DNA of 40,188 nucleotides, taken from IMG/VR virus record IMGVR_UViG_3300035196_000052, positions 1-40,188 of that record, one strand, 5' to 3'. Each line of letters begins with the position of its first letter. Within the stretch, counting starts at the first letter, position 1. The stretch is from a virus. Below, piece after piece: positions 3,504 to 40,188 of the stretch. The notes below the pieces were generated by a model, which was not told the DNA's origin, made no database searches, and was given only the letters and a program-made list of their open reading frames with translations. The position numbers were made by a program, and so were the translations under genes.

Positions 3504-3505
3504 TT

Positions 3506-8289: not shown

Positions 8290-8311
8290 TTAATTAATAA
8301 TAATAACAAAA

Positions 8312-9316: not shown

Positions 9317-9319
9317 ACT

Positions 9320-10270: not shown

Positions 10271-10277
10271 ATTAAAC

Positions 10278-10285
10278 TACATTTG
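10278..10285 (+). promoter_or_regulatory. Candidate -7 promoter box TACATTTG
   Basis: TACATTTG followed by C lies in the 19-nt gap before the holin gene and ends 4 nt before its ATG, matching the TAnnTTTG Bacteroidota -7 consensus. I found no convincing TTTG or TTG -33 element at the usual distance upstream. The identical spacing at three genes is the main support. Confidence 0.5.
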
Positions 10286-10289
10286 CAAC

Positions 10290-10877: not shown

Positions 10878-10887
10878 CAAAACATAT

Positions 10888-14427: not shown

Positions 14428-15363
14428 ATGAGTGTATTAAATTATACAACAATGGATAGAATCTTTTCTAAGATTCATAGAGACCTTAAAGGGACTACCA
14501 TTAATGAGACTGATGTAATAGAGTGGGTTGGAGAGGCTTTAGAGTTTCTCAAAGTTCCTCAGATACTTGTACAAGATGTAACCTTCTTGAAGGTGGTGGA
14601 CTACCATTCTGTGATGCCAGCCAACTTACATTTAATCACTCAGATTGCTAGAGACAATGAGTATGACCCTAATAATGCCTGTACCTGTGAAACAACTCCA
14701 GGGGCTATTGAGGACGAGGATGAGGAGACAGCAGAAATACCAGAGACCTCAGACCCTTGTTGTGAGTGTGCTGCAAACTGTCCAGCTCAGTTCTTAGACC
14801 TTAGTTGGACCTATGAAGTTTGGACTAGCCATGCTGAGTTCATTAATCATTTCACACCTGTGAGACTTTCTACACATACTTTCTTTAATAGTATAGTGTG
14901 TAAAGAAAAAGATATGACTCCTTATGCTAGTTGTAAAGATGAATACACTATTGTAGGGGAAACTGAAAAGAGATTAAGATACAATTTTATTAATGGTATG
15001 GTAGCAATCAGCTACCTTAGAAATGCTTTTGACCCTGAGACAGGATACCCACTTATTCCAGACAACATATCTTACATAACTGCTATAGTTTATTTCATTA
15101 AATGGAAGATAGCTGAGATGTATGACTGGGCTGGTAGAGAAGGCTGGGGAGTTAAGGCTGAGAAAGCTGAAGTCAAGTGGCTTAAATATGTAGGGCAAGC
15201 TAAAAGCTTTATGAAAATGCCTAAGACATTAGACCAATACCAAAACTTATTAGAACAATCTCATCACCTCTTACCAAACCATAGAAAGTATTACAACTAC
15301 TTTGGAACACTAGGAGAACAAGAGGTAAGAAACTATAACAGAGATAATAAAATATACCAATAA
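14428..15363 (+). CDS. Tail ring/connector protein (P22 gp4-like candidate) with Cys-rich insert
   Basis: The product has 311 aa. The N-terminus (IFSKIHRDLKGTTINETDVI near residue 12, then WVGEALEFLKVPQ) is the helical pattern of crAss-like ring or tail-stabilisation proteins related to P22 gp4. The C-terminal half is Trp/Tyr-rich and helical (AEMYDWAGREGWGVKAEKAE). In between lies an acidic insert flanked by cysteines C85, C87, C111, C112, C114 and C118, which could bind zinc or form disulfides. The stop overlaps the muzzle start as TAATG, so ring and muzzle proteins are probably made in a fixed ratio. Ring role is from family resemblance and neighbourhood. Confidence 0.7.
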   Translation: MSVLNYTTMDRIFSKIHRDLKGTTINETDVIEWVGEALEFLKVPQILVQDVTFLKVVDYHSVMPANLHLITQIARDNEYDPNNACTCETTPGAIEDEDEETAEIPETSDPCCECAANCPAQFLDLSWTYEVWTSHAEFINHFTPVRLSTHTFFNSIVCKEKDMTPYASCKDEYTIVGETEKRLRYNFINGMVAISYLRNAFDPETGYPLIPDNISYITAIVYFIKWKIAEMYDWAGREGWGVKAEKAEVKWLKYVGQAKSFMKMPKTLDQYQNLLEQSHHLLPNHRKYYNYFGTLGEQEVRNYNRDNKIYQ

Positions 15364-21264: not shown

Positions 21265-22788
21265 ATGAGCAAGAAAAAATACAAATATCCTCTGGGGACA
21301 GGAAGAAATGGAGTAGTAAAACACTACATTGATTCTCCCCAAGAGACTTTACTAGAAAATGATATGGCTTTGTTTAAAGCTAAAGAAGATGCTAGAGATA
21401 ATGGAGTAGCTAAAGGTTTAGGTATCTTTGGTGGTATGGCTGTAGACTATGGATTAGGTATGATGGCAAATGGAGTAGGTGCTCCTGGAGAGGAAGACAC
21501 CACTGGGGCAGGGAATTCATTCTCAGGACCAGATAACAACTCAGGGGCAGGAGGGAATTCAAGACTCGCTGCTTTTGGTCTTTCAGACATACAGAATACA
21601 GAAGTAGAGGTTGAAGGAAAAGAAGTAGCAGTACTCCCTGATGGAGGACTTATAGATTTTAAAGGTCCTTCACATAAAGATGGTGGGATTGATGTTAACC
21701 TTCCTAAGGGAACTGATATCTTTTCAAAGAGGATTAAAGTTGCTGGAGAGACAATGGCAGAGAGAGCTAAGAAGCGTGACAGTAAAATGACAAGTCTTGA
21801 AAACTTATTAAAAAAGAATGATACTGATAAAGTATTAAAAGACACCATTAAAAGAACTGGTGAGAATAATGATATGGAAGCAGAAAAAGATAAAAGATTA
21901 CAAGAGGTAGTTAAACTGATGAAGCAATTAACTGCATCAGGGACTGCTGAGACTGAAGAACAGTTTGCTGATGGAGGAACTGTTGGTGGTAACTTACTAA
22001 GAGGTATGTTTGGTGGGACTGATGCAGATGGTAACCAAATAGAGGGGAAATTGCCTAACTATACTGGTGGGGACTTACTTGGATTAGCAGGAACATTATA
22101 TTCTGCCTTTGAACCAATGAAAAACACTAAGGAAGCCAGAGCAGGGGACACCCCTAACATAAATGCTTTTGAAGACTTTGGACAAGAGGGGTTAGCAACC
22201 CTTGAAAATGCAAAAACTCATATTGGAGAACAACAAGATAAAGCTTTAAAGGATGTTGAAGTATCTAGAACAACCTCAACAAACAGAAATAGAGGGACTG
22301 CTAGAGGAGTTAATACTCTTCGTACTTTAGACTTAGCTTCTGACATACAAGCAAACGAAGCTAGTGGAGATATTTATGACACATTCTCTAAACAGATGAT
22401 GGGGCTACTTTCTAAACAAGCTGGATTTGAGAATGACCAAGATAAGGTTGTTATGGCAGGGGAAGATGAAAGAGACCAACGTGACAGAAAAGACAGAGAC
22501 AACTACTACACTCAGTTAGCACAAGACATCGCCACTAAAGGACAAGGTATCCAACAGTTAGGTAAGATGAGTAATCAAATTAAGAAGAATGAAGTATCTG
22601 AAAATTTACTTAATGCAACTTCTAAAGGGTACAAGGTTGATAACAATGGTAACATCACATTGAAGGATGGTACTAGAGAGTTAACAGTAGCTGAGATTGA
22701 TGCAGTATTACAAAGAGAAGCTGATGCACAGGGAGTGACCTTGAAGCAATACAAAGACATTTTAGCATACCAACAACAACAAGATTAA
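21265..22788 (+). CDS. Virion cargo protein (crAss-like)
   Basis: The product has 507 aa and lies directly between the muzzle gene and the giant-protein genes, the position of a capsid cargo protein in crAss-like phages. A Gly-rich hydrophobic segment near residues 48-70 (GLGIFGGMAVDYGLGMMANG) precedes a recognisable module containing GPSHKDGGI at 134-142, then NLPKGTDIFS and an amphipathic helix; this module recurs in virion proteins of Bacteroidota phages. The remainder is charged, helical and Gln-rich at the end. No cysteine is present. It is probably packaged inside the head or tail and ejected. The 31-nt leader is A/T-rich and shows no promoter motif. Confidence 0.65.
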   Translation: MSKKKYKYPLGTGRNGVVKHYIDSPQETLLENDMALFKAKEDARDNGVAKGLGIFGGMAVDYGLGMMANGVGAPGEEDTTGAGNSFSGPDNNSGAGGNSRLAAFGLSDIQNTEVEVEGKEVAVLPDGGLIDFKGPSHKDGGIDVNLPKGTDIFSKRIKVAGETMAERAKKRDSKMTSLENLLKKNDTDKVLKDTIKRTGENNDMEAEKDKRLQEVVKLMKQLTASGTAETEEQFADGGTVGGNLLRGMFGGTDADGNQIEGKLPNYTGGDLLGLAGTLYSAFEPMKNTKEARAGDTPNINAFEDFGQEGLATLENAKTHIGEQQDKALKDVEVSRTTSTNRNRGTARGVNTLRTLDLASDIQANEASGDIYDTFSKQMMGLLSKQAGFENDQDKVVMAGEDERDQRDRKDRDNYYTQLAQDIATKGQGIQQLGKMSNQIKKNEVSENLLNATSKGYKVDNNGNITLKDGTRELTVAEIDAVLQREADAQGVTLKQYKDILAYQQQQD

Positions 22789-22791
22789 GAT

Positions 22792-24534
22792 ATGGGACAA
22801 TATTATAAAACAGCAAAACCAACCTTTGTAGATGATGTAATCTACCAAGCCCCTTACGAGTTGATGGCTAGAGCTTTACAAGCCAAGGACCTACAGGTAG
22901 AAAAAGATGAGGCTGAGTATGACGAATTTGATGTACTTGGAGATGACAAGAACTACACTGATAAAGACAAGGCAAAAAGAAATGAGATTATAGATGGACA
23001 CCGAGAAGAAGCAGATAGGATTGCTAGAGGTATCCAAGAGAACCCACAGAACAGAGCTTACTATATGAGACAGATGGGGAGAGCAAGAAAGAAATTTGAT
23101 AAGGATATCAAGACTGGTTTCCTTAACGATGCTGACTTAAACTTCACAGCTAGAGAGAAAGCTGTTGAAGAGATTGACAAAAGAACTGACATCTCTCACG
23201 AACAAAAACAAGTCTCTAAAGCTCAGTTAGACCAAGAGTTTCAAGGTTCAGATGCACTTGAAGGCAATACCTTCAATGATAAGTTACATATCTATGAGGC
23301 TTTAGATGAAGAGAAATTTATCCAAGCAAAGAAAGCTGAGATAACTGCTGACTCTATTACCACTAAGAAGAACAGGACTGATGGAAGATACTTCACAGAT
23401 GAAACTGGGATTAGAAAGTTCATCTCTGATGAGAGACTTGATAAATCTTTTGAAGGGTCTACTGGTGTTGGTAAGTGGGAGAAAGCTAGATTACAAACTT
23501 TAGAAAGACAAGTTCAACAAGGAGTAATTACTCAGGACGAAGCCAATGCTACATACTCTCAGGAAAGAAAACAGTTTAAGGATGACTTTATTAATTCTTT
23601 AGGTTTTGAACAAGTTACTGAAACAGACTTTGTGACTAGAGATGGTACTAGAGTTGCTGAATCTAATAATGCTTTAGGTTGGGCTAGGTTTAATAAAGAA
23701 GAATTAACTCTTACTCAGGACACTAAAATTGACCCAGGATATATTACAACATCTGGTAAACCTCTTGAGGACCAAACAACTAATGAGTCTCGTAACTCAA
23801 ATTATAATACTGAGGGAACTCGTATTAAGAACAAACTTGGTAATGACTATTCAGCTATTGAAGCTGCACTGAAGTCAGGAGACACAGCAGCTAAGAAGGC
23901 TGCCTATGCTAAGATGAAGACTCTTGGATATTCTCCAACAGAGGTTCTTAATTTAAGAGGTTTCCTTGCAAACAAAGAAAGAAACTACATTGCTGTAGAG
24001 ACTGAGGCTGAAAGAAAAGGTTACTTAGCTATATCTAAGTCAACCCCTGATAATGCTATTGTGCAAGTTAAATACACAGATGAAACAACTGGACAAGATG
24101 TTGTTGAGGAGATGCCACTACACGAAGCTAGAGCACTGTCACGTAAAAGTACAACTACTAAGACAACTGAAAGTAAGCCAACTACAGTGACTGTAGATGG
24201 TCAGGAAGTATTATCTTATAAAGATGGAACAAGATTTGTTGCTATTGAAGATGAAGAGGGTAATACTATTCCAGCAACTGATTTTGTAGCAGGCACATTA
24301 GTGAATGGAAGAACTCCACACACATCTAAGGTAGCCTCTACAACATCAACTAAACTGCCATACTCTACAAAGGGGGTAACAGTATCAACAAGTGAAACCA
24401 ATTTTAAATATGATAACCCATTTTCAGAACCTACAAAAACTAAAGTGGTTAATTATCATGAAGTTATAGACAACAGAGAAGTTATAATCTCTATACCTAT
24501 TGATGCTAATAAAGCAAACATAATAAACAATTAA
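22792..24534 (+). CDS. Second virion cargo protein (crAss-like)
   Basis: The product has 580 aa, beginning MGQYYKTAKPTFVDDVIYQA, a start pattern seen in crAss-like virion proteins encoded just before the giant proteins. The N-terminal ~250 residues are highly charged and helical. The C-terminal third is Thr/Ser/Lys-rich with beta tendency (TTKTTESKPTTVTVDGQEV near residue 460). No cysteine, catalytic motif or membrane segment was seen. It starts 3 nt after the previous stop and ends 3 nt before the giant gene, so the cargo genes form one tight operon. Probable ejected internal protein; biochemical role unknown. Confidence 0.6.
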   Translation: MGQYYKTAKPTFVDDVIYQAPYELMARALQAKDLQVEKDEAEYDEFDVLGDDKNYTDKDKAKRNEIIDGHREEADRIARGIQENPQNRAYYMRQMGRARKKFDKDIKTGFLNDADLNFTAREKAVEEIDKRTDISHEQKQVSKAQLDQEFQGSDALEGNTFNDKLHIYEALDEEKFIQAKKAEITADSITTKKNRTDGRYFTDETGIRKFISDERLDKSFEGSTGVGKWEKARLQTLERQVQQGVITQDEANATYSQERKQFKDDFINSLGFEQVTETDFVTRDGTRVAESNNALGWARFNKEELTLTQDTKIDPGYITTSGKPLEDQTTNESRNSNYNTEGTRIKNKLGNDYSAIEAALKSGDTAAKKAAYAKMKTLGYSPTEVLNLRGFLANKERNYIAVETEAERKGYLAISKSTPDNAIVQVKYTDETTGQDVVEEMPLHEARALSRKSTTTKTTESKPTTVTVDGQEVLSYKDGTRFVAIEDEEGNTIPATDFVAGTLVNGRTPHTSKVASTTSTKLPYSTKGVTVSTSETNFKYDNPFSEPTKTKVVNYHEVIDNREVIISIPIDANKANIINN

Positions 24535-24537
24535 TTT

Positions 24538-27500
24538 ATGAATGAAGAACAAATTTTAGCTTTACAAGCTAATGGTTACACATATACTGGTGGAGGAATT
24601 ATTGACTCTGAAGGTGTTTACCAATCCTCTGTTGAGGTTCTTGGTGTTACTTATGATTCTATTGCTACTGAAGATGAATACAACTTACTTCAAGAAGAAG
24701 AGACTGAGTATGCAGTGAATGAGCAGGCTAGAGAAGCTGAATTAAAAGCTGAACAAGATAGTTTATTAGCTTATGAGAAAGAGCCAATGGCTAACACTAT
24801 AGACCATGTGCGACCAGAGACTTATGACCAATACATGCAAAACAAAGTTGCCAACAATGAGCCTGGAGCTTATGAAGACAAGGAAGACTTTGTAGAGCAA
24901 TTAGAAAGTAAAGCTCTGGTAGAAGAGGTAGAAAAAAACTTAGAGACTGGAGAAGCTATATACACTAAAGCTGTGTTTACAGGGGTAGGAAAAGACCCAA
25001 TGTTCCAAGACAAAGGTATTAACTATGATGTACTGGATAAAATTGTTCCCTTAGAAAAAAGATTAGCTGAGATTGAAAGTATAGATGAGGATGTAGATAC
25101 TAGAGTTGCAAGATATAACAAAGAGAATCAAGTAAAATTAGATAGTAATGCTTGGTATAATCCTGAAAATGTCTTATTACACTTTGACAATTTTATGGGT
25201 TCCATCTTTGCTGCCCTGTCTCCTGATGGAGCTTCAATGGACAACAAGGAATTAAAAAAAGAGTATATAAAAACTACTGAGGAAAGAGATAATGTTCTTA
25301 AACCAGAAATTGAAAAAATAAGTCAAATTATTAAAGATGGTGAACTTGATTTCTACGACAAGGATTACGAAAAAAATTATAATGCTAGTTCTCTAGTGAG
25401 TAGAGAAGATGCAGGGATTAACAATTATATGAGAAGACAACTTCAATCTAAAGTAGACGAGTTAGATGCTTATGTAAATGATGATAATGTCTATAACCTT
25501 TTAGGAGAAGAGTTCTTAACTGACATTGCCACTTTTGGAATAAGAGATGCACATGATTCAGTTAAATACAGAAAATATTTGGTTGATAAATTAGAAAGTG
25601 GAGAAGAAAGAACTGAAGCTGAAACAAGAGCTTTAGAGAATATGGCTAGAATAGACTTACTTAATGGTCTTAATGTAGAACAAAATACATTATACAATTT
25701 AACCTATGGTGCAGGACATTCTGTATCCTTCTTAGGTGGGGGTGTATTTGGTAGAGCTGCTGGTAAAGGAGTTGCTAAAGCAGTAAGTGCTGCAGTAACT
25801 AAAGGAGTGTCTAAAGGTATAGCTGGAAAGATAACAGCTAAACTTGCAACTAAAGGTGGAGCTAGAAAGATAACAGCTAAACTTGCAACTAAAGGTGAAG
25901 TACAGGCAGTAAGAAAATCTACAGGAGATGCTGTGGGGTTACTTGCAGATGTAACGACACAAGCTACACTGCACACTTCCAACTTAGCTAACACTATTGA
26001 TAACCATAATGGTTCAGTACACTTTAATTTTGAAGGAGGTAAAGTGTCTATGCAAACTGACAGAATGCAGTACCAAGCAATGATTAATGATATTGAAAAG
26101 TATCAGGATGCTCTAGACAGAGGTTTAGGGACTCCAGAACAAAGAAAGGTAACTAAACATAATCTTGTTCAGATGAAGGAGATATTAAAAAACACTAAAG
26201 AACCACAAACATGGGCGGGGGCTGGGGCTAAAGCTTATACTGGAACTTGGGTTGAAGCAGTTTCAGAGGTAGCAACACTTGGTTTACTTAAAGGTATCCC
26301 AAATAATGTTGTTACTAGAAAGCTTACAGAAAACTTTAGAAAAACCCCAACTTGGAGTAAAGTTACTGCTAAATCAACTAAAGCTAAAACTATAATAGAT
26401 AAAATAAACAACCCTTTTCCAAAAACTATGGAAGCCCTTAATAACTTTTCAGGTAAAAGGATTGGAAAGCCAACCATTGGTGGAAACCTTGAGGAGGCTT
26501 TAGAGGAAGTTGTTGTTCAAGCTGTCCCTGTATGGGGAGAGACTGATGCTGAGGCATCTGCAAGAAAGAATGAATTACTTAATGGTAGTTTTTATTTTAA
26601 TGTATTGGCACAAGCTCCTATTCAAAAAATAATAATGAGCCCAGTAGGTAACTCTATTAGAGGGGCTAAGTACTTACAGAACAAATTAGGTTCTGATTAC
26701 AGACAAACTAAGAAGAACTTCGATAACTTGATGAAGGACTTACAGAAAGAAGGTATCACTAAAGAAGAGATAGATGGTATCATGATGGCTGCAGGGAGTG
26801 GAAACTTTAGTCAAACAGAGTATAAGAATAAGATTAAAGAACTTACTGACCAAGGTAAGCATGAAGAAGCTAATAAGATTAGAGAGAACAGAATATTCAA
26901 TGGTGTCTTCCAGGCTATGAAACATGGTAAAGGGAAGCAGTTTATATCTGCTCTTGAAGGGTCTTTAGCTAAGCAACAAGCTCCAACTACTATCCCAAGT
27001 GAGGAAGAGATGGCAACTATGAAAGCTACACAGAAAGCAATTGCAGAAGCAAAAGCAGTAATGTCTAGTGCTAAAGCTTCTGAAGGTCTTCCTAATCATG
27101 AGTATATACTTAACTTAGAATACAATAAAAGAAATCTTGAGTCTAATAAAACAGAACTAGAACAAAGAATAAGTGAGTTACAGGGAGAACCTGAGACTGA
27201 GCAAAGAGACCTTGATATCAAGTCTTACCAAGAGTCTTTACAAAAGACTGAGACTGGGTTAAGATTTTTAGATAAGAAAATAGGGGTTGAGAAATCTCCA
27301 GCTAAAGCTAAGAGATATCAGGATGAATCTACTATGATGAAATTTGCTCAAGAGCACATAGCTTCTAACAGTAAGGTAACTGTAGCTCAAGCTCTTAAAG
27401 ATAATTTTGGTAAGAGTGTGTCAAACCAATCTGTACAGAAAGTATTAAAACAAACTGAACGTCTACAAATACTAAAGACTTTCAAAGAAGAAATGGCTGC

Positions 27501-30500
27501 TAAGAAGGAAGCTGATAAACAAGTTGAGGTTACTCCTCCAACAGAGACAGCTCCTGCTGAAGTCACTACTCAAAACCCTTTTGGAGAAGGTAGTATAAGT
27601 GCTTCTCAGGACCAAGAGGTAGAAGATTTAGGAGAGGAGTTTAAAGAAATTGTTAGTGAAAACATGCAAGAGATTGAAACTTTTGTTCAAGATGAAATGG
27701 ATGGGGGTATGGATATCTTTATGCAAATGCCTGAAGATGAGATGGTTTCTACACTAAATGATGCAGATGCTGAGACTAATCCTCTTGTAAGTATAGGACA
27801 CAAGATGAAAGCTTTTGCTGAAGTGTTGAAAGAAACAACTGGTAGAGATGCTACATTTGAAGATTTCCTTATGGCAATTGGTGGAAAAGGTACTATACCT
27901 AACTACCAAGAGTACTTAACTTTGTTTGGTAATGCCTGGAGCAATGCTGGACTTGGTAAAGTAGATGTACAACAAAAATATAATAATGCAATAGCTATGG
28001 CTAACTCTCTTCAAGAGAAGTTAGACTTGGCAACTGTTGCTGTAACTGAGTCTATAGAGACCACTGAAAAATTAGAGAAAGAAGAAAAGGTCCTTGGACT
28101 AACTTCTACACCTTCTGAAACAGTGGTTGTAGATATCAATGGTATACCTGTAGTAGAACAAAACAGAGACGAGGTTTATGATGAAGTACATAAAGTAAAC
28201 TACTCTGCATTAGAGTTTGTTGAAGAAGAAGTTGTAGATGAGGAAACAGGAGAAACTTATATTCGTAGAAGTAATGCCCCAGTTCCACAAAGAAATAGTG
28301 ATTCTCCTACTAATGTTAACAATCTTGTTAATCCAAACAAAAACAACAAAGGAGACATATTAACTATTGGACAACCTACTGCTGAAGAGACTGGTAAGAC
28401 ATTTGTTTCAGTTAGAAATGAGAATGGTAAGACTGTTAAAAGGATTCCTTTCTCTGAATGGGTAGAGGAGAATAGACCTAAAACAGGTACTAATACCCAA
28501 TCTGAAATAAATAAACGAAGAAACGAAGAATTAGATGTTGAGTTAACTAAAAAAGCTAAAGATATACCTGTAAAAAAAGAATATTATACAGATGTTAATG
28601 GTAATGATGTTACAGTGACAACTTATAGAGCTGGGAATAAAGTAGCTGTGTTTACAAAAAGTGGAAACGTAGCATCTGAAAATGGGGATTTAGAAGGTTT
28701 TGTTGAAGAGGGGACTAAACCACATAACACAGAAACTGTTACAAGTAAACTAGAAAATAAAATAAACGCTAAGTATGATGCTGAAATAGCTAATTTAAGT
28801 GGTAGTATGTCTATTGAAGAGTTCTCTAAAACTGATGAATATATCAGTAAAGTACCTATGTACTATGTTGACAGTGAAGGTCAAAATGTAGGATGGGTTG
28901 CTGAGTCTGAATGGTTTAATGCTTCTACTGAAGGACAGAATGATGGTACTAAAATTAAAGTATCAAATTTATCCTCTCTTGAAAAGAAAGAAATTGAAGT
29001 TAAAAGACTGAGTGCTTTGAATCTAAGAAAAGAAATCCTTGCTGGAAACACTAAGGAGTTTGAAATATTATCTGATGGTACTTCATTTGTAAGATTAAAA
29101 ATACAAAAAGAAGAAGCTGATGGTACACCAATACCTCCAAAGAAATTAAATGAAGTAGCGAAGACTAGCCATGTGGCAGTGATGGGGACATCAGGTCTTA
29201 ACTTTGTTGATGGAGGAGTGAAGATTGATACTGGAGATATAATCAACTGGGGAGACAGTGATGCTGGGTTCTCAAAGAAAATTAAGCAAACTAGTAAAGA
29301 TGGTAAATCTGTTTCTTATGTTGTAGAGAATGCAGGGAAAGCTGTTTATATAGAACATGTATCTACTATAAATGGAGTTAAGAAGTACGTTGTTACACTT
29401 GCTTTAAGAAAGAATGAAGATAATAAGAACCAGGCTAGACAAGATGCTATTGAGACTGTAAGAATCTTAGCAGCAGCTAACACTATCCTAGTAAATGATA
29501 CTTTTAGTATAGGACCAAACAAGCAACCATTTATAGCAAAGGACAATCCTTATAGAATGACTAAGGAACAAGCACAACAAGTGCATGACCAAGTTAAGAA
29601 AGAGACAGGATTATCTTTGTCTACCTCATTAAGTGAGTTAGTTGAAGGATTAGTTTCTGTGAAGAAAGGTGCTGAAGAGACTGATGGTAAAGAAGTTAGA
29701 GGTTTACACATAGCTAAAATGGCTCATAGATGGAACAAAGATTCTGGAATGGCTGTTAATAGTGATAAGTATGTACAGAACACAACTTATGGTCCTCGTT
29801 CTCATCAAGGGGGTGTAGTAAGTATCTCTAAGACTGAGGATGGACAATTCAAAGTAGAGAAAATAGCAGACTCTTATGAAGAGTATTTGAAAGATACACT
29901 ATCAACCAACTTGATGGGATACAATGTAGGGACTGAAGAAAACCCAGTGTTTACACCAGCCCTTCAACAAGGAGTAAGAATAAAAGCAATCAAGAGTGAT
30001 AATCCAAAACCTCTAGTACAACAAGTACAAGAGTCTAAGACTGAACCTGTTGTAGCAGAAAAGATTGTAGAGATTAAAGAAGATGTAGTAGAAGCTGAAG
30101 TAATTGCAGAGGTATTAGATGGAAACACTGAGACCCTATCTGAAGCAGAAACAACCACAAGAAATGAGGCATTAGAAACTGCCACTGCTCTTATTAATAA
30201 GCTTGGAGGTACAATCAATCCTTTAGAAGAAACTGATGAGCTGGTAGTATCAGAGATGACCTCAACACAAAATGTGAAAGATGGTATCCTTGTTACCAAA
30301 GGTTTAACTGTAGAACAAGAGGAAGATATAATTGGGAGTATGAGTTCTGAGTTAGCTAATAAAGATGCTAACCCATTAACTATCCTTTCCAACTTAGAAA
30401 AAGACTTGAAAGAAGCTGCCAAAGAGATTGAGGCAAGCCTGGAGACATTAGAAAGTTTCAAAGGTAATCTTGCTGTAGAAAATGTTACTAGTAGCTTAGA

Positions 30501-33500: not shown

Positions 33501-36500
33501 ATTCTCTGCAATGGTTAACATGAAGAAAGGGAAATTCTTAGATGCTTTAGGGTTAGATGAGAACATGGTTCCTATTGATGAGAAGAAATCTAAAGAGCTT
33601 GTACAACAGTTGATTTTAGCTGAAGCTGAAAGTAGAGGATTTTCTAAACAAGACTTAAAGTCTCTTGAGTTAGTAGGACCTAAAGACGAGTTCAGACTCC
33701 CTTTATGGGCAACTGGGAACAGTAATAAGTTTGAAGCAATGCTTAATGCTTTAATTACAAACAAAATATTCAAACAAAAGATTCCTGGTAACAAGTTTGT
33801 TACTGCATCTGAAGCTGGTTTTGAAGTAGCTGAAGATTACAAAGGGGTTAATAGAAGTAAGATTATACATATTGGAGATTTCAAAGGAGGGACATTAAAG
33901 AGTACCAAGAATGCTCAAGGGCAAATTATTAAAGCTGAAGTGCTTATGCCTTCTAGATTTAAACTTGGTGGGAAATTAATTGACATATTTGATGGATTCA
34001 ATGAGGCTACAGGACAAGGAGACTACATTACTTTAGTTGAAGGTACTTACCAACTTAGAGAAGAGATGTTTGATAAGGAAGTGTTAGAGCAGTTTGCTTT
34101 TAGAATTCCAACATCATCTCATGGACTAGGTTCTGCTATCAAAATAGTAGGATTCTTACCTCCTGAGTCTGGAGATTTAGTAGTGACACCTAAAGGTTTC
34201 ATTGCACAGATGGGACAGGATTTTGATATTGACAGTTTAACAGCTTACCAATACCACCACATTGTAAGACAAGATGGGAAGATTGAGAAGTTAACTGAAG
34301 AGAATTCTGATGCTTATATTGCTGAGAAAACTAATGAGATTGCTACACTACAGAGGTTAATTACCACTGAAGGAAAGTATGCTCCTGAGACTGCTAAGAT
34401 GATAGATGGTCTGGTACAAGGACTGTTAGGAGAAGATGAGGCAATGACATTTAACATTTACCCTCACACTGAGGCTGAGTTAAAAGATATGGTTGCTTTC
34501 TTAAAGTCACAAATTAAAGGAAGTTATGAACAAAAATTATTGGAGAACAAGTTTGTAGAGACTCACATTGCTGTGTTCTCTAATCCTGCAGCTCAAGACA
34601 AGATAAACAAAGCTTTATCTATGGCTTATGCTGAGGGACAGGCTGCTGATATCCAACAGTTAATTGATACAAATGCTGAGGAGTCAACTACATTTGACAT
34701 GTTGTCTCCAGAGTATCAACGAGTTAAGATGAACAATGGTTCTACTGGGTCTATTGCAATTGGTATCTATGCTAAAGGGGTAACTCTTCATAGTGGATTC
34801 CAACAAGCAATCAGTAAAGGTGGAGTACACTTAACTAGAATGGTAAATAAAACTAAGACTAGAGCATCTGTTGTGGTGGGTAATCTAGCATCTAATGGTA
34901 ACTTTGGTTCTAAGGCAACACTTGCTACAAGTAAAGCAGTTGCTTTCTTAGGAAGACCAATCTCAACAGTTCTCGATGAGAGAACTAATACAGCAACTGA
35001 TAATGAGAAAGCTCAGATTCTTGGTAAGACAGGATTAAATCACAAGAGTGCAATTGCAGTGGATAGTATGATGGCAATGTTAGGGTTTGACTCAGAGCAT
35101 GAAATCATTAAAGAAGAAGAGTATATAGAAGGAGAACCTTTCCACAGAAAGAAATCAATTAATGGTAAAACAGTATTCTACAAAGAGTACTCTATACCTT
35201 ACTTGTTACACTCTCAACCTATTGTAAAAGAGTTCTTTGCAATCTTAAATCAGAAAGAATCTATTTCTAGTCTTGAGTTCCCAGTGAACCCAAAGCAAGA
35301 AGCAATTGATGCTTTGATAGTTAAGTATGGTACAGCAGGGTCTGTAATACAAGGAGGAAGATATGGGCAGGAAGTTTCCAGAATGATGGGAGAAGATGTG
35401 ATAACTGTATTTGAGTCTACTCAGGACAACAAACAGTTCACAGGTAAGAGATTAGCTGGTAATGTTTCTTTAGGAGATAAGGCAGATAATGTACAACAGC
35501 TTGAAATCTTAGCTCTTTATGCTCAGTTAATGAGTGATGCTGAAGGGGTTAAGGAAGCAGGGCAGTTGGTAGATATGAACAACTTAGGAAAGTCTATGTG
35601 GGAATCAGCAACTAAAGAAGATGATTTCAGAGAGTACTTTTCAAACACAGATGAGAATTCAAACCTGGATGGGGTTGAGTTACTAGTGGGAGATATAGTG
35701 TATGATGGAGAAACTATAGAAGAGGGAGAGACTTACATTGACTTAGGTAAAGGAGTATATCTAATACCTAGAACCAACCAAGGTATAATGGTAGGTACTG
35801 CTTTATCATTAAGTACAAATTTATTTAATGGTTTATTCCCTGCTAAGAGTGTGTATCTAAACAAGATAATGTCTAAAATACTAGCTAGTAGTAAGGTAAA
35901 TATTAATAATTCTTTTGCTTTGATTAAAGCTAAAGAGCACATGTTCCAAGAGATGAAGAGATATATCACTACTTCTCAGATGTTAGGTTTGTTTAACACC
36001 AATGCAAAAGAGGTTAGAGAAACCCTTTTCACTGATGTTGAAGGACATAACACATCTTTAAGTACATACATTGACCATTTATATTCTGATGATAGTGCAG
36101 AGTTTAGTAAAGGAGTAGAGAAGGTAAGAGGGAATTTATTCTTAAACTTACTTAACTTTCAATATGGGGAAGATGGGAAACCTTCTTTAATCACATTCAA
36201 CAACCAAGAATCTTTCGAGGCTAACCAAGAGGCTATCTTCACAGCATTCAAGGCATTGATTGCAGAGGATATATCTTTACCTAGAATTAACAGAAATGGA
36301 GAAACAGAATTCTACTCTACAAGATTGCTAGCACAAGAGCTGATTGCATATTCTTATGCTTCTGGAGGTATAGTACAGGGAGCTTTACAGTTCCACAAAT
36401 TTTTACCAATAGAGTATTTAGATGATATGACTGCAAACATCTCTACAGGGGACAATATGACAGCCAGTGGGGTTCTTAGACAGTTTAATAGTTTAATGAA

Positions 36501-37836
36501 TGATGACACTAATAGAGTAGCTTTCTTAACTGGGTTTGAAGAACAATACTTTCAAAACAATCCACAGATGGCTCAGCAAAAAGCACTGAAGAGATTTGAA
36601 ATCCCAGGTGGTGGAGCTTATTACACATTGAAATCAGAGGTTAGTAATCCTCCTATGTATATATCTGCAAAGGTATCTACTAAGAGTAAGCTTAAACAAC
36701 ACAAGTGGAAGCTATACAGACAGGAAAGAGCAGGAGTGTATGTTGAGATTGAAGTTCTTGGTGCACTAGGTATGGCTGAGTATCAGTATCAAATAGCTAA
36801 TGCTACTTCAAGTGTTACAGATAAAGAGTTTGTAAGAAATGAAGTATCAGAAATTGAGTCTAAGTTTCATGAGAATGAAAATTTAGGTACTCTTCCTGAC
36901 AATGGTACTCCTATAGTAGAGATAACAAGCACAATTGCAAAAGGAGAGTTTGGAGATGACCAAAGAATAATGGAAATCGCTAACTTCATTGCACCATTAT
37001 TAAATGATGTAGATGAATACAATGAGTATGATGGTGGAGCTGCAGGGACTACTAGTAGAAAGACTGGAAACATTAAGATGAATGTAGACAGAATACCAAC
37101 TAGAGCACACTTTGCTAAAACCTTTATTCATGAGGCTTTACATAACTTAACTGCTAGATACATTAGAGATTTTGTAGATGGTAATGGGACAATAGCTGAA
37201 GGAGCTCCAAGTGAGGTTTATACTTATATGAATGTATTCAGTCAGTTTAAAGAACAACTGAGAAATAAAGACACAGTAAAGTATGATAACTTTTTGAAAG
37301 AGTATGGAGATTATAAAACCAGAAGAGACAGTAATCAATCTATCTCCTCTGAACACTTCACTCTTAAAGGAGATGAGTTTGAAACTTACTATGCTGCTAT
37401 AAACCCTCAGGAGTTCTTAGCTGTGACATTATCTAATACTAATGAGACATTTAGAAATACTTTAAAAGGTATGGACTATCTTGCTATCCCTAAGGGATTA
37501 ATGGAAAAGCTGACAGATGTTTTAGTTAGAATAATTAATAAAATTGCTAAAAGAGAAAACTTAGAGAATAATTCCTTAGCTTTGCAGGCAATCAAGTCTA
37601 GCTTGATGGTTACAAAGAGGGGGAGTGAACATAACTTTAAGAAATATAAAAAAGCTCCTAAGGCAGTTAAAGTGACACAAGCTCCCTCCCCTTTAACAGA
37701 AGAGGCAGCGTATTTGGCATTTCTTGAACAACAGATATTATCTGAGGAAGGTGGACCAGAGTTCACACCAGAAGGTCCAAGTGCTGGAGTCTCTTTTAAA
37801 AGTATAACAGATGACATTAATAATAAATGTAAATAA
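24538..37836 (+). CDS. Giant virion fusion protein: N-terminal module, virion RNA polymerase, zincin protease
   Basis: The product has 4432 aa. Residues 1-~2030 are a virion module of helical and linker regions, including a Gly/Ala-rich amphipathic stretch (391-455) with a tandem repeat. At ~2042 begins a crAss-type RNA polymerase (KLGTALKRLFAQ); its catalytic double-psi beta-barrel carries D3228-F-D3230-I-D3232, the DFDID metal-binding motif known from the crAss-like phage phi14:2 virion polymerase. It is preceded by FRIPTSSHGLGSAIKIVGF. The polymerase region ends near 4080. A zincin follows with H4198-E-A-L-H4202 and E4292 in NPQEFLA as likely third ligand. The polymerase is expected to be ejected and to transcribe early genes. 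By eye the only cysteine is residue 4431. The fusion of these three parts is the notable feature. Confidence 0.9.
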   Translation: MNEEQILALQANGYTYTGGGIIDSEGVYQSSVEVLGVTYDSIATEDEYNLLQEEETEYAVNEQAREAELKAEQDSLLAYEKEPMANTIDHVRPETYDQYMQNKVANNEPGAYEDKEDFVEQLESKALVEEVEKNLETGEAIYTKAVFTGVGKDPMFQDKGINYDVLDKIVPLEKRLAEIESIDEDVDTRVARYNKENQVKLDSNAWYNPENVLLHFDNFMGSIFAALSPDGASMDNKELKKEYIKTTEERDNVLKPEIEKISQIIKDGELDFYDKDYEKNYNASSLVSREDAGINNYMRRQLQSKVDELDAYVNDDNVYNLLGEEFLTDIATFGIRDAHDSVKYRKYLVDKLESGEERTEAETRALENMARIDLLNGLNVEQNTLYNLTYGAGHSVSFLGGGVFGRAAGKGVAKAVSAAVTKGVSKGIAGKITAKLATKGGARKITAKLATKGEVQAVRKSTGDAVGLLADVTTQATLHTSNLANTIDNHNGSVHFNFEGGKVSMQTDRMQYQAMINDIEKYQDALDRGLGTPEQRKVTKHNLVQMKEILKNTKEPQTWAGAGAKAYTGTWVEAVSEVATLGLLKGIPNNVVTRKLTENFRKTPTWSKVTAKSTKAKTIIDKINNPFPKTMEALNNFSGKRIGKPTIGGNLEEALEEVVVQAVPVWGETDAEASARKNELLNGSFYFNVLAQAPIQKIIMSPVGNSIRGAKYLQNKLGSDYRQTKKNFDNLMKDLQKEGITKEEIDGIMMAAGSGNFSQTEYKNKIKELTDQGKHEEANKIRENRIFNGVFQAMKHGKGKQFISALEGSLAKQQAPTTIPSEEEMATMKATQKAIAEAKAVMSSAKASEGLPNHEYILNLEYNKRNLESNKTELEQRISELQGEPETEQRDLDIKSYQESLQKTETGLRFLDKKIGVEKSPAKAKRYQDESTMMKFAQEHIASNSKVTVAQALKDNFGKSVSNQSVQKVLKQTERLQILKTFKEEMAAKKEADKQVEVTPPTETAPAEVTTQNPFGEGSISASQDQEVEDLGEEFKEIVSENMQEIETFVQDEMDGGMDIFMQMPEDEMVSTLNDADAETNPLVSIGHKMKAFAEVLKETTGRDATFEDFLMAIGGKGTIPNYQEYLTLFGNAWSNAGLGKVDVQQKYNNAIAMANSLQEKLDLATVAVTESIETTEKLEKEEKVLGLTSTPSETVVVDINGIPVVEQNRDEVYDEVHKVNYSALEFVEEEVVDEETGETYIRRSNAPVPQRNSDSPTNVNNLVNPNKNNKGDILTIGQPTAEETGKTFVSVRNENGKTVKRIPFSEWVEENRPKTGTNTQSEINKRRNEELDVELTKKAKDIPVKKEYYTDVNGNDVTVTTYRAGNKVAVFTKSGNVASENGDLEGFVEEGTKPHNTETVTSKLENKINAKYDAEIANLSGSMSIEEFSKTDEYISKVPMYYVDSEGQNVGWVAESEWFNASTEGQNDGTKIKVSNLSSLEKKEIEVKRLSALNLRKEILAGNTKEFEILSDGTSFVRLKIQKEEADGTPIPPKKLNEVAKTSHVAVMGTSGLNFVDGGVKIDTGDIINWGDSDAGFSKKIKQTSKDGKSVSYVVENAGKAVYIEHVSTINGVKKYVVTLALRKNEDNKNQARQDAIETVRILAAANTILVNDTFSIGPNKQPFIAKDNPYRMTKEQAQQVHDQVKKETGLSLSTSLSELVEGLVSVKKGAEETDGKEVRGLHIAKMAHRWNKDSGMAVNSDKYVQNTTYGPRSHQGGVVSISKTEDGQFKVEKIADSYEEYLKDTLSTNLMGYNVGTEENPVFTPALQQGVRIKAIKSDNPKPLVQQVQESKTEPVVAEKIVEIKEDVVEAEVIAEVLDGNTETLSEAETTTRNEALETATALINKLGGTINPLEETDELVVSEMTSTQNVKDGILVTKGLTVEQEEDIIGSMSSELANKDANPLTILSNLEKDLKEAAKEIEASLETLESFKGNLAVENVTSSLETLKEQIKQVSKDKGKLLTEATERGKRENFVVDVYEETEGESVKDYSKKSNEEKPVDKLGTALKRLFAQVETGETGFLGRKKITPFKSMYDTVLLTLSSSIGSTTDFKDMMRILKQYEKSNFWVSSLVEKLESSEESVQNSFVYNMHAQKVSAYFSGFTNDGTTLNATLYESNSNSAVRVIKNNWKENFKRNKINKKGVVNKEEMTRLYNEYLSWGASPEKQSLETLQTWLGAFGIRVSERAMEEMMKGQLAIVKDGIAEKKSLKQLFEDSAGVFNILNKFLIDNRGENDAAINFYAKPKTHPFENMHSILEQVAYLEAKNNSRYASTTRRSGQKTVTEVENMTYFYQQIRKLKNSVMAKNSYLGKLRETAFAKDSYMLRMLAEDPEFLETFDHGLMDLMSLKDVYKDTPMFAGIDELSEEDYQLALRIAYQSKGRKGKLDKASGFKLRPPHMNTLTNSDKGRMVLMKTFVYDFYASDQSFTQDAEGNYIFTDQVNELMYDNYVMPELRRMYSFIAGGRNTDIKGYAQGAERFNIFPVLNTVKNKKGQTIRDAIIEKVKAGISEADAMEAIKKEFKEVSTKEVEKNTFAEARKVSDNRSVPNDVDFMAARTIGTDQERNMLAEVDFILNSKLTSMNYMQMVAGDPAMYYNADHSSATSNNLVEATKASVISAVNIGKRMAAMIAPGKNLANSKGDTYLQVMMEDVYGAAENLLDIVGWHYSQKEINATHEESGFTYRDMIKRVVEGDNSFEDILKDRFSNIADFIGIESTDAQEYSTVKEHLYVLEKQGRIPQEILDAIRTKIDAQNKFYAVEENQGKPIPAELALSQVINSANKSINGLTMTEILLQPLKPVYTGSILKDGVNRMVYIKSSSFPLIPELTAGRKLDGLRVKMETLENQTGKTVRASYQSANKVGGLTGDKTFSDIDAPLSLDNTIELDREHFKIQQDVPNKSQKTGDDTVSMGTQIFKLLFGDGMTDLKGFMYQGEELTGEEMKEKFFETFSAMVNMKKGKFLDALGLDENMVPIDEKKSKELVQQLILAEAESRGFSKQDLKSLELVGPKDEFRLPLWATGNSNKFEAMLNALITNKIFKQKIPGNKFVTASEAGFEVAEDYKGVNRSKIIHIGDFKGGTLKSTKNAQGQIIKAEVLMPSRFKLGGKLIDIFDGFNEATGQGDYITLVEGTYQLREEMFDKEVLEQFAFRIPTSSHGLGSAIKIVGFLPPESGDLVVTPKGFIAQMGQDFDIDSLTAYQYHHIVRQDGKIEKLTEENSDAYIAEKTNEIATLQRLITTEGKYAPETAKMIDGLVQGLLGEDEAMTFNIYPHTEAELKDMVAFLKSQIKGSYEQKLLENKFVETHIAVFSNPAAQDKINKALSMAYAEGQAADIQQLIDTNAEESTTFDMLSPEYQRVKMNNGSTGSIAIGIYAKGVTLHSGFQQAISKGGVHLTRMVNKTKTRASVVVGNLASNGNFGSKATLATSKAVAFLGRPISTVLDERTNTATDNEKAQILGKTGLNHKSAIAVDSMMAMLGFDSEHEIIKEEEYIEGEPFHRKKSINGKTVFYKEYSIPYLLHSQPIVKEFFAILNQKESISSLEFPVNPKQEAIDALIVKYGTAGSVIQGGRYGQEVSRMMGEDVITVFESTQDNKQFTGKRLAGNVSLGDKADNVQQLEILALYAQLMSDAEGVKEAGQLVDMNNLGKSMWESATKEDDFREYFSNTDENSNLDGVELLVGDIVYDGETIEEGETYIDLGKGVYLIPRTNQGIMVGTALSLSTNLFNGLFPAKSVYLNKIMSKILASSKVNINNSFALIKAKEHMFQEMKRYITTSQMLGLFNTNAKEVRETLFTDVEGHNTSLSTYIDHLYSDDSAEFSKGVEKVRGNLFLNLLNFQYGEDGKPSLITFNNQESFEANQEAIFTAFKALIAEDISLPRINRNGETEFYSTRLLAQELIAYSYASGGIVQGALQFHKFLPIEYLDDMTANISTGDNMTASGVLRQFNSLMNDDTNRVAFLTGFEEQYFQNNPQMAQQKALKRFEIPGGGAYYTLKSEVSNPPMYISAKVSTKSKLKQHKWKLYRQERAGVYVEIEVLGALGMAEYQYQIANATSSVTDKEFVRNEVSEIESKFHENENLGTLPDNGTPIVEITSTIAKGEFGDDQRIMEIANFIAPLLNDVDEYNEYDGGAAGTTSRKTGNIKMNVDRIPTRAHFAKTFIHEALHNLTARYIRDFVDGNGTIAEGAPSEVYTYMNVFSQFKEQLRNKDTVKYDNFLKEYGDYKTRRDSNQSISSEHFTLKGDEFETYYAAINPQEFLAVTLSNTNETFRNTLKGMDYLAIPKGLMEKLTDVLVRIINKIAKRENLENNSLALQAIKSSLMVTKRGSEHNFKKYKKAPKAVKVTQAPSPLTEEAAYLAFLEQQILSEEGGPEFTPEGPSAGVSFKSITDDINNKCK
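25822..25899 (+). repeat. Tandem 39-bp duplication in the giant gene
   Basis: Two adjacent 39-bp copies (25822-25860 and 25861-25899) differ at only two positions. Each encodes A-(G/R)-KITAKLATKG-(G/E), residues 429-441 and 442-454 of the giant protein. The near-identity indicates a recent in-frame duplication within a basic, amphipathic Ala/Gly-rich segment that might interact with membrane. Confidence 0.85.
34219..34233 (+). other. Catalytic DFDID motif of the virion RNA polymerase
   Basis: These codons encode D3228-F-D-I-D3232. In crAss-like virion RNA polymerases the aspartates of this motif coordinate the catalytic magnesium in the second double-psi beta-barrel, as in two-barrel polymerases related to eukaryotic RNA-silencing RdRPs. 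The surrounding IAQMGQ...SLTAYQY matches the family context. Confidence 0.9.
37129..37143 (+). other. HExxH zinc-protease motif
   Basis: These codons encode H4198-E-A-L-H4202 in FIHEALHNL, near the C-terminus of the giant protein. E4292 in NPQEFLA, about 90 residues downstream, fits the third zinc ligand of phage/plasmid zincins. It could process the giant polyprotein or cut host or virion proteins; the target is unknown. Confidence 0.75.
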
Positions 37837-37838
37837 AT

Positions 37839-40188
37839 ATGAGTAAAATATGTAAAGCAACCTTAGTTGCAGTAAAAGAGGACTATGATAAAAGAGTCCA
37901 AATCTACATTAAGAAACTCTACAACAAAAGCTTTGAACAACTAACTGATAAGACTAACCCCATGCATACGGTGCAAGGGGTTAAGTTCTTAAACATCAAA
38001 AGGAGTATAGGCAGTTCTACTGCTTTCTCTATTGAGGTTAATAAGGAAGGTATGGATAAGCTAATAGTTATGGAAACCTACAGAGCAATGAAGATGGATG
38101 GTCAAGATGAGAATGTTTTGCCTCCTCTTCCACCTGCAAGTATGTTGCCTGGTACACCTGTAAAAAATGATTTTGATTTCTTACAGACTATTGAGCACAG
38201 AAAAAAACTTAAAGAACAGGTAGATGTAAAGATTCAACTTTTAAAAAATGAGGAATTAAGAACTGGAGAAAGCAGGGCTCAGCTTGAACAGATAGCTTCT
38301 CTTAAAGAACTGTCTATCAGTCTGTTTAAAGAGATTAAAACCTTAGAGGACAATGATTCAGACACTATGGCATTTATTGATAATATCAGAGTAGACATAG
38401 TTAATATGCAAAACCTTTTAAGAAATCCTACAATTGAGAATTTAGAGTTTGTTAAGAAGTATGTTGATATGATTGGTTACATGACCTCTAGTCAAAAGGG
38501 AGGATTCTTAACTGAATCTTTTATAACACTTGCTAAAAATAATCCTCCTGTACACGCTGCTATAGTTAAGGCTAAAGCAGGTCTTAAAGCTGTAGAAGAT
38601 GATTTAAAAGCTGAAGTTGAATTAAGAGTTCTGGAGAAGATAGAATTTCATCTGAGACAGACAGAAGAAAATAAAAATGCCCAAGATGATTTTATTAAAG
38701 AAGAAGCAAAAAGATTATATGACATTCAGTTTGCTTCTAGAGTTGGTAAAGATTACATAGGTGTAAAATACTACACCAGAATGGATAATCAAGAAGAGGG
38801 AGAAGTAATTACTTCTGTAATTAAGAAAGCTTATGATGATGCTGTTAGAAATAACGGTAAGAAAGGTGTGGAAGATAAGCTTTTAGCAAAAGAGAAGTCT
38901 ATTACTAAAAGATTAATGGACACTGGAAATTTTATAGGGACTTTCTTTAATAAGAAAGCTGATTGGAGTATTTTTAAGACTGCCAATAAAGGAGAGAGCA
39001 GATTGATAAATGTTTTTACTGTAGGGTGGCAAGAATTCAAGAAAAAGAATGCTATCAGACAGAAAAGTGTAACAAAAATATCTTATGTTTTTACGGCTGA
39101 GAATTCTGATGCTCAATTGAATACAATTGATAAGCATTATGAAGACTTGTCAAAAGAAGCTGATTTTATAGATGTTAGAAAACTTCCTGAAATAATTGCT
39201 GACTCTTCATTTTCTGAATTCTCTGGTAATTTTGCAAATGACCAAGAAGCCCTAGATTACAAACAGGAGCTGATTGACAGAATGGGACAAAGAGAGTATA
39301 ATAAACTCGTTAAAGAAGCACAAGATAATATTAGTGCTTTTATGATAGAGAAAGATGTTAAATTACAAAGACTGTTAGAAGAGTATGGAGCAACAAATGC
39401 AGGAGAATTGCAGGATAAGATGTATAAAGCAGACGCTGAGAATGTGTGGAATTTTTACTTACAGAACTTTTATACTAAGTCTCCATTTGTGTTTGCAGAA
39501 AATCATTTTGACCAGGCTACAGGTAATAAGGTTGCTAAGTCTTTCTTTATAGATGGTAAACAATACATTAATCATGATGCAAGAGCCAACTTGGAGTACA
39601 GTACTTTCACCCCTAAAGACAAACATAAAGACAAGAGATTTGAAGAGAACATCAAGAGTGACCCTGTACTGTTAGAAGCATGGGAGCTTATGGATGAATT
39701 GGTTGAGTACTCTAACTTAAATGGAACTAACTACAATGAATCCTCAGACTTATTAACAGATTTAGGTCATGAAAAACTAGACACACACCTTTTATCAGAT
39801 ATACTGGGTTTGGTTTCCCCAAAAATTCTCAAGAATATAAAAAGACTAATTGGTCGTTTTACTGGAACTATATCTGGTAAGGAGTACCAATCTGAAACTG
39901 GAGAAAGGAATATCACTGGTTCTCGTATAACTACAGAAAGTAAGATAGGACCTCAATACAAAAAATTACTAGCTATTGATGGTGTTTCCGAAAAGGATTT
40001 AACTCCCGAAAAGAAACAAGATTACAGAGAAAGAGCTGTAGAACTAGTTGAAGCACAAGAGAATAATGATAATTTACTACATAATATAGTAACTTCTTCT
40101 CAAACCACTGGAGCTTTCAAAGCTAAGAAAGAAGTTGAAACTTTTGTTAATTTTATGGCTGACCAACTAAGAAATGTTAAAGATAGAC
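37839..40188 (+). CDS. Second giant virion protein, 5' part (runs off the window)
   Basis: ATG at 37839 follows the previous stop by 2 nt and opens a frame that stays open to the window edge, giving 783 complete codons plus one base. The protein starts MSKICKATLVAVKEDYDKRV and is long, charged and mostly helical, with coiled-coil-like stretches (for example HRKKLKEQVDVKIQLLKN near residue 118). Size, location and style match the additional giant virion proteins that accompany the polymerase in crAss-like phages. No DxDxD or HExxH motif appears in the visible part. By eye there is a single cysteine, at residue 5. Function unknown; probable ejected cargo. Confidence 0.8.
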   Translation, partial: MSKICKATLVAVKEDYDKRVQIYIKKLYNKSFEQLTDKTNPMHTVQGVKFLNIKRSIGSSTAFSIEVNKEGMDKLIVMETYRAMKMDGQDENVLPPLPPASMLPGTPVKNDFDFLQTIEHRKKLKEQVDVKIQLLKNEELRTGESRAQLEQIASLKELSISLFKEIKTLEDNDSDTMAFIDNIRVDIVNMQNLLRNPTIENLEFVKKYVDMIGYMTSSQKGGFLTESFITLAKNNPPVHAAIVKAKAGLKAVEDDLKAEVELRVLEKIEFHLRQTEENKNAQDDFIKEEAKRLYDIQFASRVGKDYIGVKYYTRMDNQEEGEVITSVIKKAYDDAVRNNGKKGVEDKLLAKEKSITKRLMDTGNFIGTFFNKKADWSIFKTANKGESRLINVFTVGWQEFKKKNAIRQKSVTKISYVFTAENSDAQLNTIDKHYEDLSKEADFIDVRKLPEIIADSSFSEFSGNFANDQEALDYKQELIDRMGQREYNKLVKEAQDNISAFMIEKDVKLQRLLEEYGATNAGELQDKMYKADAENVWNFYLQNFYTKSPFVFAENHFDQATGNKVAKSFFIDGKQYINHDARANLEYSTFTPKDKHKDKRFEENIKSDPVLLEAWELMDELVEYSNLNGTNYNESSDLLTDLGHEKLDTHLLSDILGLVSPKILKNIKRLIGRFTGTISGKEYQSETGERNITGSRITTESKIGPQYKKLLAIDGVSEKDLTPEKKQDYRERAVELVEAQENNDNLLHNIVTSSQTTGAFKAKKEVETFVNFMADQLRNVKDR

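Follow-up and report, generated by a model that had tools for sequence, protein, structure and literature searches.

How several very large enzymes can pass together, and in a set order, through a tail channel that is too narrow for them is an open question for both crAss-like and N4-like phages. Few viruses of the human gut are as abundant as crAss-like phages. Here the question is raised by a 40,188-base viral fragment (IMG/VR record IMGVR_UViG_3300035196_000052, positions 1 to 40,188, hereafter the window), which presents the gene order ring-muzzle-C1-C2-47-50-49 expected of a Crassvirales-type virion RNA polymerase (vRNAP) cargo, and in which the four cargo open reading frames (ORFs) are almost free of cysteine. 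We found that the cysteines of the vRNAP cargo stand at the cuts between separately encoded pieces, one on each side of the cut, and that they are absent where the pieces are fused. We think it likely that the pieces are joined tip to tip by these joint cysteines, the interior being kept nearly Cys-free. For the genes that lie outside the fragment, replication genes among them, the complete relatives FpV4, phiCrAss001 and phi14:2 served as substitutes. The cargo and its relevant positions are the following, with the names 47, 50 and 49 taken from phiCrAss001 numbering and the corresponding profiles built here.

21265..22788, + strand: C1-like cargo protein, 507 amino acids (aa), no cysteine (ORF, cysteine count, PHROG 15413); gene position matches FpV4 gp30 and phiCrAss001 gp45
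22792..24534, + strand: C2-like cargo protein, 580 aa, no cysteine (ORF, cysteine count); gene position matches FpV4 gp31 and phiCrAss001 gp46
24538..37836, + strand: giant cargo protein, 4432 aa, 47 and 50 (RNA polymerase) fused (PHROG 16227; profile hits for 47 at residues 55-1901 and for the 50 polymerase at 2440-4101)
30241..31854, + strand: fused 47/50 joint, residues 1902-2439, no cysteine (gap between the two profile hits)
33826..33858, + strand: residues 3097-3107, the counterpart of the place where locus L189 has its new cut (both L189 halves aligned to the giant by blastp)
34219..34233, + strand: RNA polymerase catalytic motif DFDID, D3228, D3230 and D3232 (invariant GxDxDxD columns in alignment A3)
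37129..37143, + strand: HExxH motif HEALH, residues 4198-4202, a possible zincin-type protease motif judging from the sequence (in alignment A5, H298, E299 and H302 do not vary)
37567..37833, + strand: C-terminal tail of ~85 residues, predicted to be disordered in an AlphaFold2 model, with Cys4431 near its tip
37828..37830, + strand: TGT codon of Cys4431, proposed C-terminal coupling cysteine (invariant in alignments A1 and A5)
37839..40187, + strand: 49-type cargo protein, first 783 aa, running off the window end (profile hit 15-782)
37851..37853, + strand: TGT codon of Cys5 (MSKIC...), proposed N-terminal coupling cysteine and proposed partner of Cys4431 (separate 49 proteins have such a cysteine in 64/64 and 48/49 cases)

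A first-pass annotation had estimated two cysteines in about 6300 residues of these four ORFs, both at protein ends, and the exact count is 2 in 6302, one at residue 4431 of 4432 in the giant, whose interior is Cys-free, and the other at residue 5 of the partial 783-aa protein. The other 18 ORFs of the window hold 60 cysteines in 7035 residues (0.85%), and at that rate 53.7 would be expected in the cargo (Poisson P(<=2) ~7e-21). The depletion persists after normalisation for base composition, since the position-specific composition of the cargo genes themselves predicts 66.6 cysteines. Furthermore, TGY codons occur at 0.3 per 1000 cargo codons in frame, versus 14.3 and 56.6 out of frame, and the out-of-frame rates are close to those of the rest of the window. 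Because TGY is missing only in frame and the null model predicts 66.6 cysteines, base composition is ruled out as the cause, and the depletion is a property at the protein level.

The accompanying claim that upstream proteins are richer in cysteine held for the neck, ring and muzzle proteins (266 aa with 8, 311 aa with 8 and 1956 aa with 17), but not for a block of five ORFs:

15363..21233, + strand: muzzle-type protein, 1956 aa, 17 cysteines, a non-ejected contrast (PHROG 15100, count)
6256..12213, + strand: five non-cargo ORFs, 1 cysteine in 1963 aa (counts)

As this block is equally poor, Cys poverty in the window extends beyond the cargo, and the ejection idea does not explain it. Within the block, 9320-10270 matches the BD-FAE esterase, and another ORF weakly matches a holin family.

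Comparison of the relatives indicates, at the level of sequence, that in crAss-like phages the vRNAP cargo forms a single colinear chain, 47-50-49, which is encoded as one to four proteins depending on the lineage. In the Steigviridae 47, 50 and 49 are all separate, in the Intestiviridae 47 is followed by a fused 50-49, and in the Suoliviridae, FpV4 and the window a fused 47-50 is followed by 49. The cysteines track these cuts. In phiCrAss001 they are found at residue 2339 of 2341 in gp47, at residues 5 and 2404 of 2412 in gp50 (plus one internal), and at residue 5 in gp49, whereas phi14:2 has them at 1797/1797 in gp67, at 3 and 2179/2180 in gp66 and at 3 in gp65, and FpV4 at 4286/4287 in the giant and at residue 3, with one more internally, in the next protein. 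The first piece thus carries a C-terminal cysteine only, the last an N-terminal one only, and the middle piece both, as in the 50 proteins of phiCrAss001, phi14:2, cr106_1 and cr111_1, and ten further genomes behave alike. The window fits this rule, with Cys4431 and Cys5 at its cut and no cysteine at the N-terminus of the giant or at the 47/50 joint, which is uncut here and cut, with a cysteine pair, in Steigviridae, Intestiviridae and other lineages.

The rule was examined over ~175 crAss-like loci overall. Fusion state was assigned from profile hidden Markov model hits and lengths, without use of the terminal cysteines, and a joint end was scored as positive if a cysteine lay in the last 12 residues of the upstream piece or in about the first 8 of the downstream one. 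In a first set of 80 IMG/VR loci, retrieved with a polymerase-core profile, a cysteine was present at free joints in 65/66 C-termini of the polymerase ORF (after correction of two frameshifted genes and two single-TAG joints), in 64/64 N-termini of 49, in 24/24 N-termini of the polymerase ORF and in 22/22 C-termini of 47, giving 175/176. The automatic count for 47 was 20/22, the two misses being wrong neighbours: in phiCrAss001 and cr106_1 the genuine 47 gene is on the opposite strand, and it does end in cysteine. Ends that are not joints lacked it almost completely: 0/55 polymerase N-termini with 47 fused, 0/55 C-termini of 49, 0/22 polymerase C-termini with 49 fused and 1/18 N-termini of 47 (1/150).

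A held-out set of 80 more loci, obtained with a different but related profile, was analysed once the rule was fixed, and gave 48/49 and 48/49 joint ends (96/98) and 0/46 and 0/7 other ends (0/53); it is not fully independent, as some contigs repeat known phages (L194 is phiCrAss001 and L212 is cr106_1). Both sets include some close kin. When pooled, they show a cysteine at 271/274 joint ends versus 1/203 other ends. The background in other ORFs of the loci is 16/363 for residues 2-9 (37/391 with the looser N-terminal criterion applied to the cargo) and 63/429 for the last 12 residues. After the C-terminal cysteine come 0-8 residues, the N-terminal one occupies position 3-8, and the tail sequences around them vary freely. 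At the other extreme, the three-way 47-50-49 fusions of L155, L156, L157, L161, L162, L164 and L227 (5642 aa) contain no cysteine at all. In the 50-49 proteins of crAss002 and cr110_1 an in-frame start, MSC, lies downstream of the annotated one, which was probably placed too far upstream.

Several loci serve as natural experiments. L189 has a novel cut in the polymerase core, ~120 residues ahead of the catalytic motif; the first half gained a tail whose cysteine, at 1851/1854, is the only one in that protein, and MAIKC opens the second half, this Cys5 being the only cysteine in the part of the protein seen. About 6 kb with several other ORFs separate the two polymerase halves (L189 5567-11480), and both halves look intact. 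In L257 an extra 534-aa protein within the chain starts MGC and ends ..FTC, with cysteines at both ends, and in L260 the 47 side itself is cut, the first piece ending ..NCI, the middle one, a 1281-aa protein, running from MNC to KNKNC and the next starting MSSC. A 47 gene lying convergent on the opposite strand ends in cysteine in 10/11 cases; because opposite-strand 47 genes (phiCrAss001, cr106_1 and others) still end in cysteine, a DNA-level or translational-coupling origin of the terminal codons is excluded. On a tree of the polymerase core, fusion states changed at least six and at least eight times, and the supported independent pairs, 3/3 and 5/5, all go in the predicted direction.

Some loci that seemed to depart from the rule proved to be artefacts. 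L131 and L173, scored as fusions by TAG read-through, actually read ..FKCK(stop) KIMACD and ..TTKCQ(stop) MSCSI, whereas L160 and L135 are frameshifted genes in which other frames end LKKNCK and NLKCRK. The stop between 50 and 49 in L131 and L173 is a single in-frame TAG (after ..CK and ..CQ), and its suppression would yield a fused protein keeping both joint cysteines.

For the physical meaning of the rule we favour, with some reserve, a polymerase cargo that is a disulfide-coupled protein train, having one cysteine pair per joint, a Cys-poor interior and the form of a linear thread of ~5,000-6,500 residues, in which fusion and coupling would be interchangeable. At each free joint, the cysteine near the upstream C-terminus would pair in the virion with that near the downstream N-terminus, most simply as an interchain disulfide. 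Because both cysteines are so near the tips, such a bond would give an almost unbranched chain, which could be drawn through the portal, the tail and the envelope channel like a fused giant, with the order of the pieces fixed and their ratio held at 1:1; in the reducing cytoplasm the pieces would then come apart. The proposal would also account for the Cys-poor interior, since an interior cysteine could make a loop or branch that jams the channel.

In phiCrAss001, mass spectrometry detected gp45, gp46, gp47, gp49 and gp50 in virions, and their ejection in a partly unfolded state was proposed (Bayfield et al. 2023, PMC10172136); with constrictions under 50 Å on its way, the cargo has to unfold in part, the three RNAP-associated proteins were given, as an example, 6 copies each, and other interchain disulfides are present in the virion (PMC10172136). 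The predicted disorder of the giant's tail (AlphaFold2 predicted local distance difference test ~30-50 for most of the last 90 residues) speaks in favour of end-to-end coupling, and the fragment residue C531 of alignment A5, which corresponds to giant Cys4431, is invariant in 12/12. The start of the 49 protein is predicted to be helical with modest confidence. For phiCrAss001, whose virion mass spectra were acquired both reduced and unreduced (PMC10172136), the tryptic pair expected from a disulfide between gp47-C and gp50-N would be CNS + CITTNSTIEELAAK, with a computed monoisotopic mass of 1812.823, or 2410.147 when a missed cleavage leaves EQALRCNS; for gp50-C and gp49-N it would be ICGANTLYEL + CAIIPQVR, at 1992.017.

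Several points weigh against this proposal. The cytoplasm in which packaging takes place is reducing, and oxygen is largely missing from the gut lumen, which makes it hard to say when a disulfide would form. What the sequences show is the lack of interior cysteine, which base composition does not explain, and the rule at the joints with its disappearance on fusion; we infer the covalent bond, its disulfide nature, the time of its formation and its threading role. True exceptions exist: the 50 of L163 has no terminal cysteine though its 49 has one, the 49 of L219 has its first cysteine at residue 20, the convergent ORF taken as 47 in L228 does not end in cysteine, and L220 is without a terminal cysteine; in addition, L140, L116, L224 and L268 contain irregular or broken genes. 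The rule does not extend to C1 and C2. Several crAss-like lineages carry many interior cysteines, up to 26 in one cargo protein (L237), so that strict interior avoidance is not needed in all of them. Finally, the phylogenetic replication is real but modest, with 8 supported independent pairs on a quick tree with many open forks, and many of the loci are close kin.

The depletion itself extends well beyond the window. In crAss-like relatives the cargo homologues are depleted, with 4 cysteines in 7213 aa in FpV4 and 7 in 7478 aa in phiCrAss001 (genome average 1.02%), the rest of the same genomes averaging 0.7-1.0%, and over the loci the interior density is 0.040% in 47/50/49 versus 0.705% in other ORFs. 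Among unrelated podoviruses, the N4 ejected proteins vRNAP (0/3506), gp51 (0/644) and gp52 (0/150), T7 gp15 (0/747) and gp16 (0/1318) and P22 gp7, gp16 and gp20 together (0/1309) have none. Homologue totals agree, with 0 cysteines in 34,319 aa for 46 T7 gp15 proteins, 5 in 63,174 for T7 gp16 and 2 in 65,220 for N4 vRNAP, whereas the controls T7 gp12 and N4 primase have 0.57% and 1.0% over their homologues. However, the expectation that ejected proteins are consistently depleted was borne out for T7, N4 and P22 and failed for myoviruses, in which they are mildly depleted or normal (phiKZ vRNAP subunits 16/2614, T4 Alt 3/682, P1 DarB 9/2255). Because these proteins keep cysteines, tail ejection is ruled out as a sufficient cause, and unfolded threading or periplasmic assembly is a better candidate than ejection itself. 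Conversely, the scaffolds P22 gp8, N4 gp57 and T4 gp22 are Cys-free and not ejected. Tape measures of unrelated phages are also Cys-free (lambda H 0/853, L014; P1 Sit 0/1140, L017; T4 gp29 0/590, L013). The proposed selection against cysteine in ejected, threaded proteins is thus supported in part, the depletion being a protein-level effect that recurs in unrelated podoviruses, and weakened by the insufficiency of ejection, by cargo proteins with as many as 26 cysteines and by non-ejected proteins with none.

The explanation first suggested for the window was avoidance alone, with cysteine selected against in proteins that are unfolded and threaded in the oxidising periplasm and the terminal residues merely tolerated. 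Its basis is the recurrence in T7, N4 and P22, the description of the periplasm as oxidising in a review of ejection proteins (PMC8954989), and the autotransporter passengers, which are equally Cys-poor and, unless DsbA has been removed, are impeded by disulfides (PMC3297439). Interior cysteines are also fewer in FpV4, phi14:2 and the window (1 in ~16,500 aa of vRNAP cargo) than in 11 human-gut genomes (77 in ~67,800 aa), a hint that an oxidising setting may sharpen the avoidance, in a comparison where habitat is confounded with phylogeny. However, tolerated residues would not sit at 271/274 joint ends and 1/203 others, nor vanish on fusion and reappear at the new cut of L189. We consider avoidance as the whole explanation improbable; it is refuted for the terminal cysteines and may still partly account for the Cys-free interior. 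Far from incidental, as had been assumed, the terminal cysteines are among the most conserved features of the cargo proteins, and for this reason the explanation shifts to avoidance plus conserved end-to-end coupling. Mere composition, by which A+T-rich genes and helical, charged proteins would be Cys-poor without selection, has next to no chance of being right. Helical scaffolds and tape measures such as P22 gp8, N4 gp57, T4 gp22, lambda H and P1 Sit are indeed Cys-free and the cargo is K/E/Q-rich and W-poor, but W is down 2.7-fold and C ~27-fold, the base-composition null has already failed, and same-fold enzymes that stay in the cell keep their cysteines (N4 RNAP1/2 13/685, T7 RNAP 12/883) whereas N4 vRNAP has 0/3506.

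The pairing of the ends and the fusion logic would be equally well accounted for if the end cysteines met in the assembled polymerase through a metal or other thiol chemistry, without a disulfide, for example with an unknown enzyme ligating or trans-splicing the pieces. A short start of the C-P-N type recurs in about ten downstream proteins and makes a docking element possible, but there is a single cysteine per end, no other conserved ligand is evident in the tails, and the tails differ in sequence and length; we see this as unlikely, with some real chance of being correct. The shared start of 49 and 50 reads M-x(1-3)-C-P-N-x-[NKS]-[ST] and then an aromatic position (L100, L101, L143, L151, L169, L178, L186, L188, L261 and L271); common to several otherwise unrelated downstream pieces, it is perhaps a small docking element, and a regular-expression search did not find it inside the fused giants. 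It is very unlikely that each terminal cysteine anchors its own protein elsewhere (capsid, portal, C1 or a host protein) or acts as a redox timer. T7 gp14, a single small ejection protein, does keep a lone Cys2 in 39/44 homologues, but such anchoring gives no account of the first, last and middle piece pattern or of the Cys-free fused joints. T7 gp14 is otherwise Cys-free and starts MCWA.. or MCEP.. (L042-L089), and the only cysteine of T7 gp6.7 is also at residue 2; a single cysteine at a terminus may matter for T7-type ejection as well.

Among known systems, the phiCrAss001 cargo belongs to the same gene family as that of the window and has the same order, but 47 and 50 are separate there and fused in the window and FpV4. 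The main text of the phiCrAss001 paper describes disulfides in the tail hub, the rings and gp57 and none in the cargo (PMC10172136). Phi14:2 gp65-gp67 (gp66 RNA polymerase, PDB 6VR4) have a homologous catalytic core and show the C-terminal only, both, and N-terminal only pattern on three separate proteins, and the 50-type protein of cr111_1 matches the PDB structure of this polymerase. The N4-type (Schitoviridae) vRNAP, with gp51 and gp52, is likewise a giant, ejected, Cys-free RNA polymerase and is thought to unfold in transit (PMC12633501), but it is an unrelated, T7-type polymerase in one chain, and terminal cysteines or split versions were absent among the homologues examined. T7 gp14-gp16 and P22 gp7/gp16/gp20 are also ejected, channel-forming and essentially Cys-free; they differ in being separate and non-colinear, T7 gp14 alone keeping one cysteine, at residue 2. 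By analogy, the nearest known principle would be the Cys poverty of autotransporter (type V secretion) passengers, which likewise contain little or no cysteine, cross a narrow pore unfolded and are hindered by disulfides (PMC3297439), although direction and machinery are different and there is no end-to-end coupling. Cysteines are not mentioned in the phiCrAss001 atlas, the Crassvirales review, two N4 vRNAP papers and the ejection-protein review, and no prior report of Cys depletion or terminal cysteines in ejected phage proteins was found in a search that did not include the phi14:2 polymerase paper.

As for the window itself, the C-terminal half of the giant matches the RNA polymerase gp66 of Cellulophaga phage phi14:2 (tblastn 6e-18) and the giant of Flavobacterium phage FpV4 (31% identity across 97% of the query), while a single-protein scan with the giant and megablast returned no match. 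The closest aligned homologue of its 49 protein is L092, at 59% identity. On the tree of the RNAP, the window falls among uncultured loci and, in a wider grouping, beside FpV4, rather than with the Steig-, Intesti- or Suoliviridae; FpV4 is a Fipvunavirus, listed without the order Crassvirales. Evidence from mass spectrometry for presence in the virion covers the phiCrAss001 and phi14:2 homologues, the cargo of the window being known from sequence alone.

The junction rule suggests a concrete answer to the problem of ordered delivery, one that is testable on existing data, and the terminal cysteine offers a simple sequence signature for spotting pieces of the chain in metagenomes. If the proposed train is real, it would be, to our knowledge, the first case of separate polypeptides coupled end to end through cysteines for threading as one chain, and gene fusion and cysteine coupling would be interchangeable solutions to the same delivery problem.

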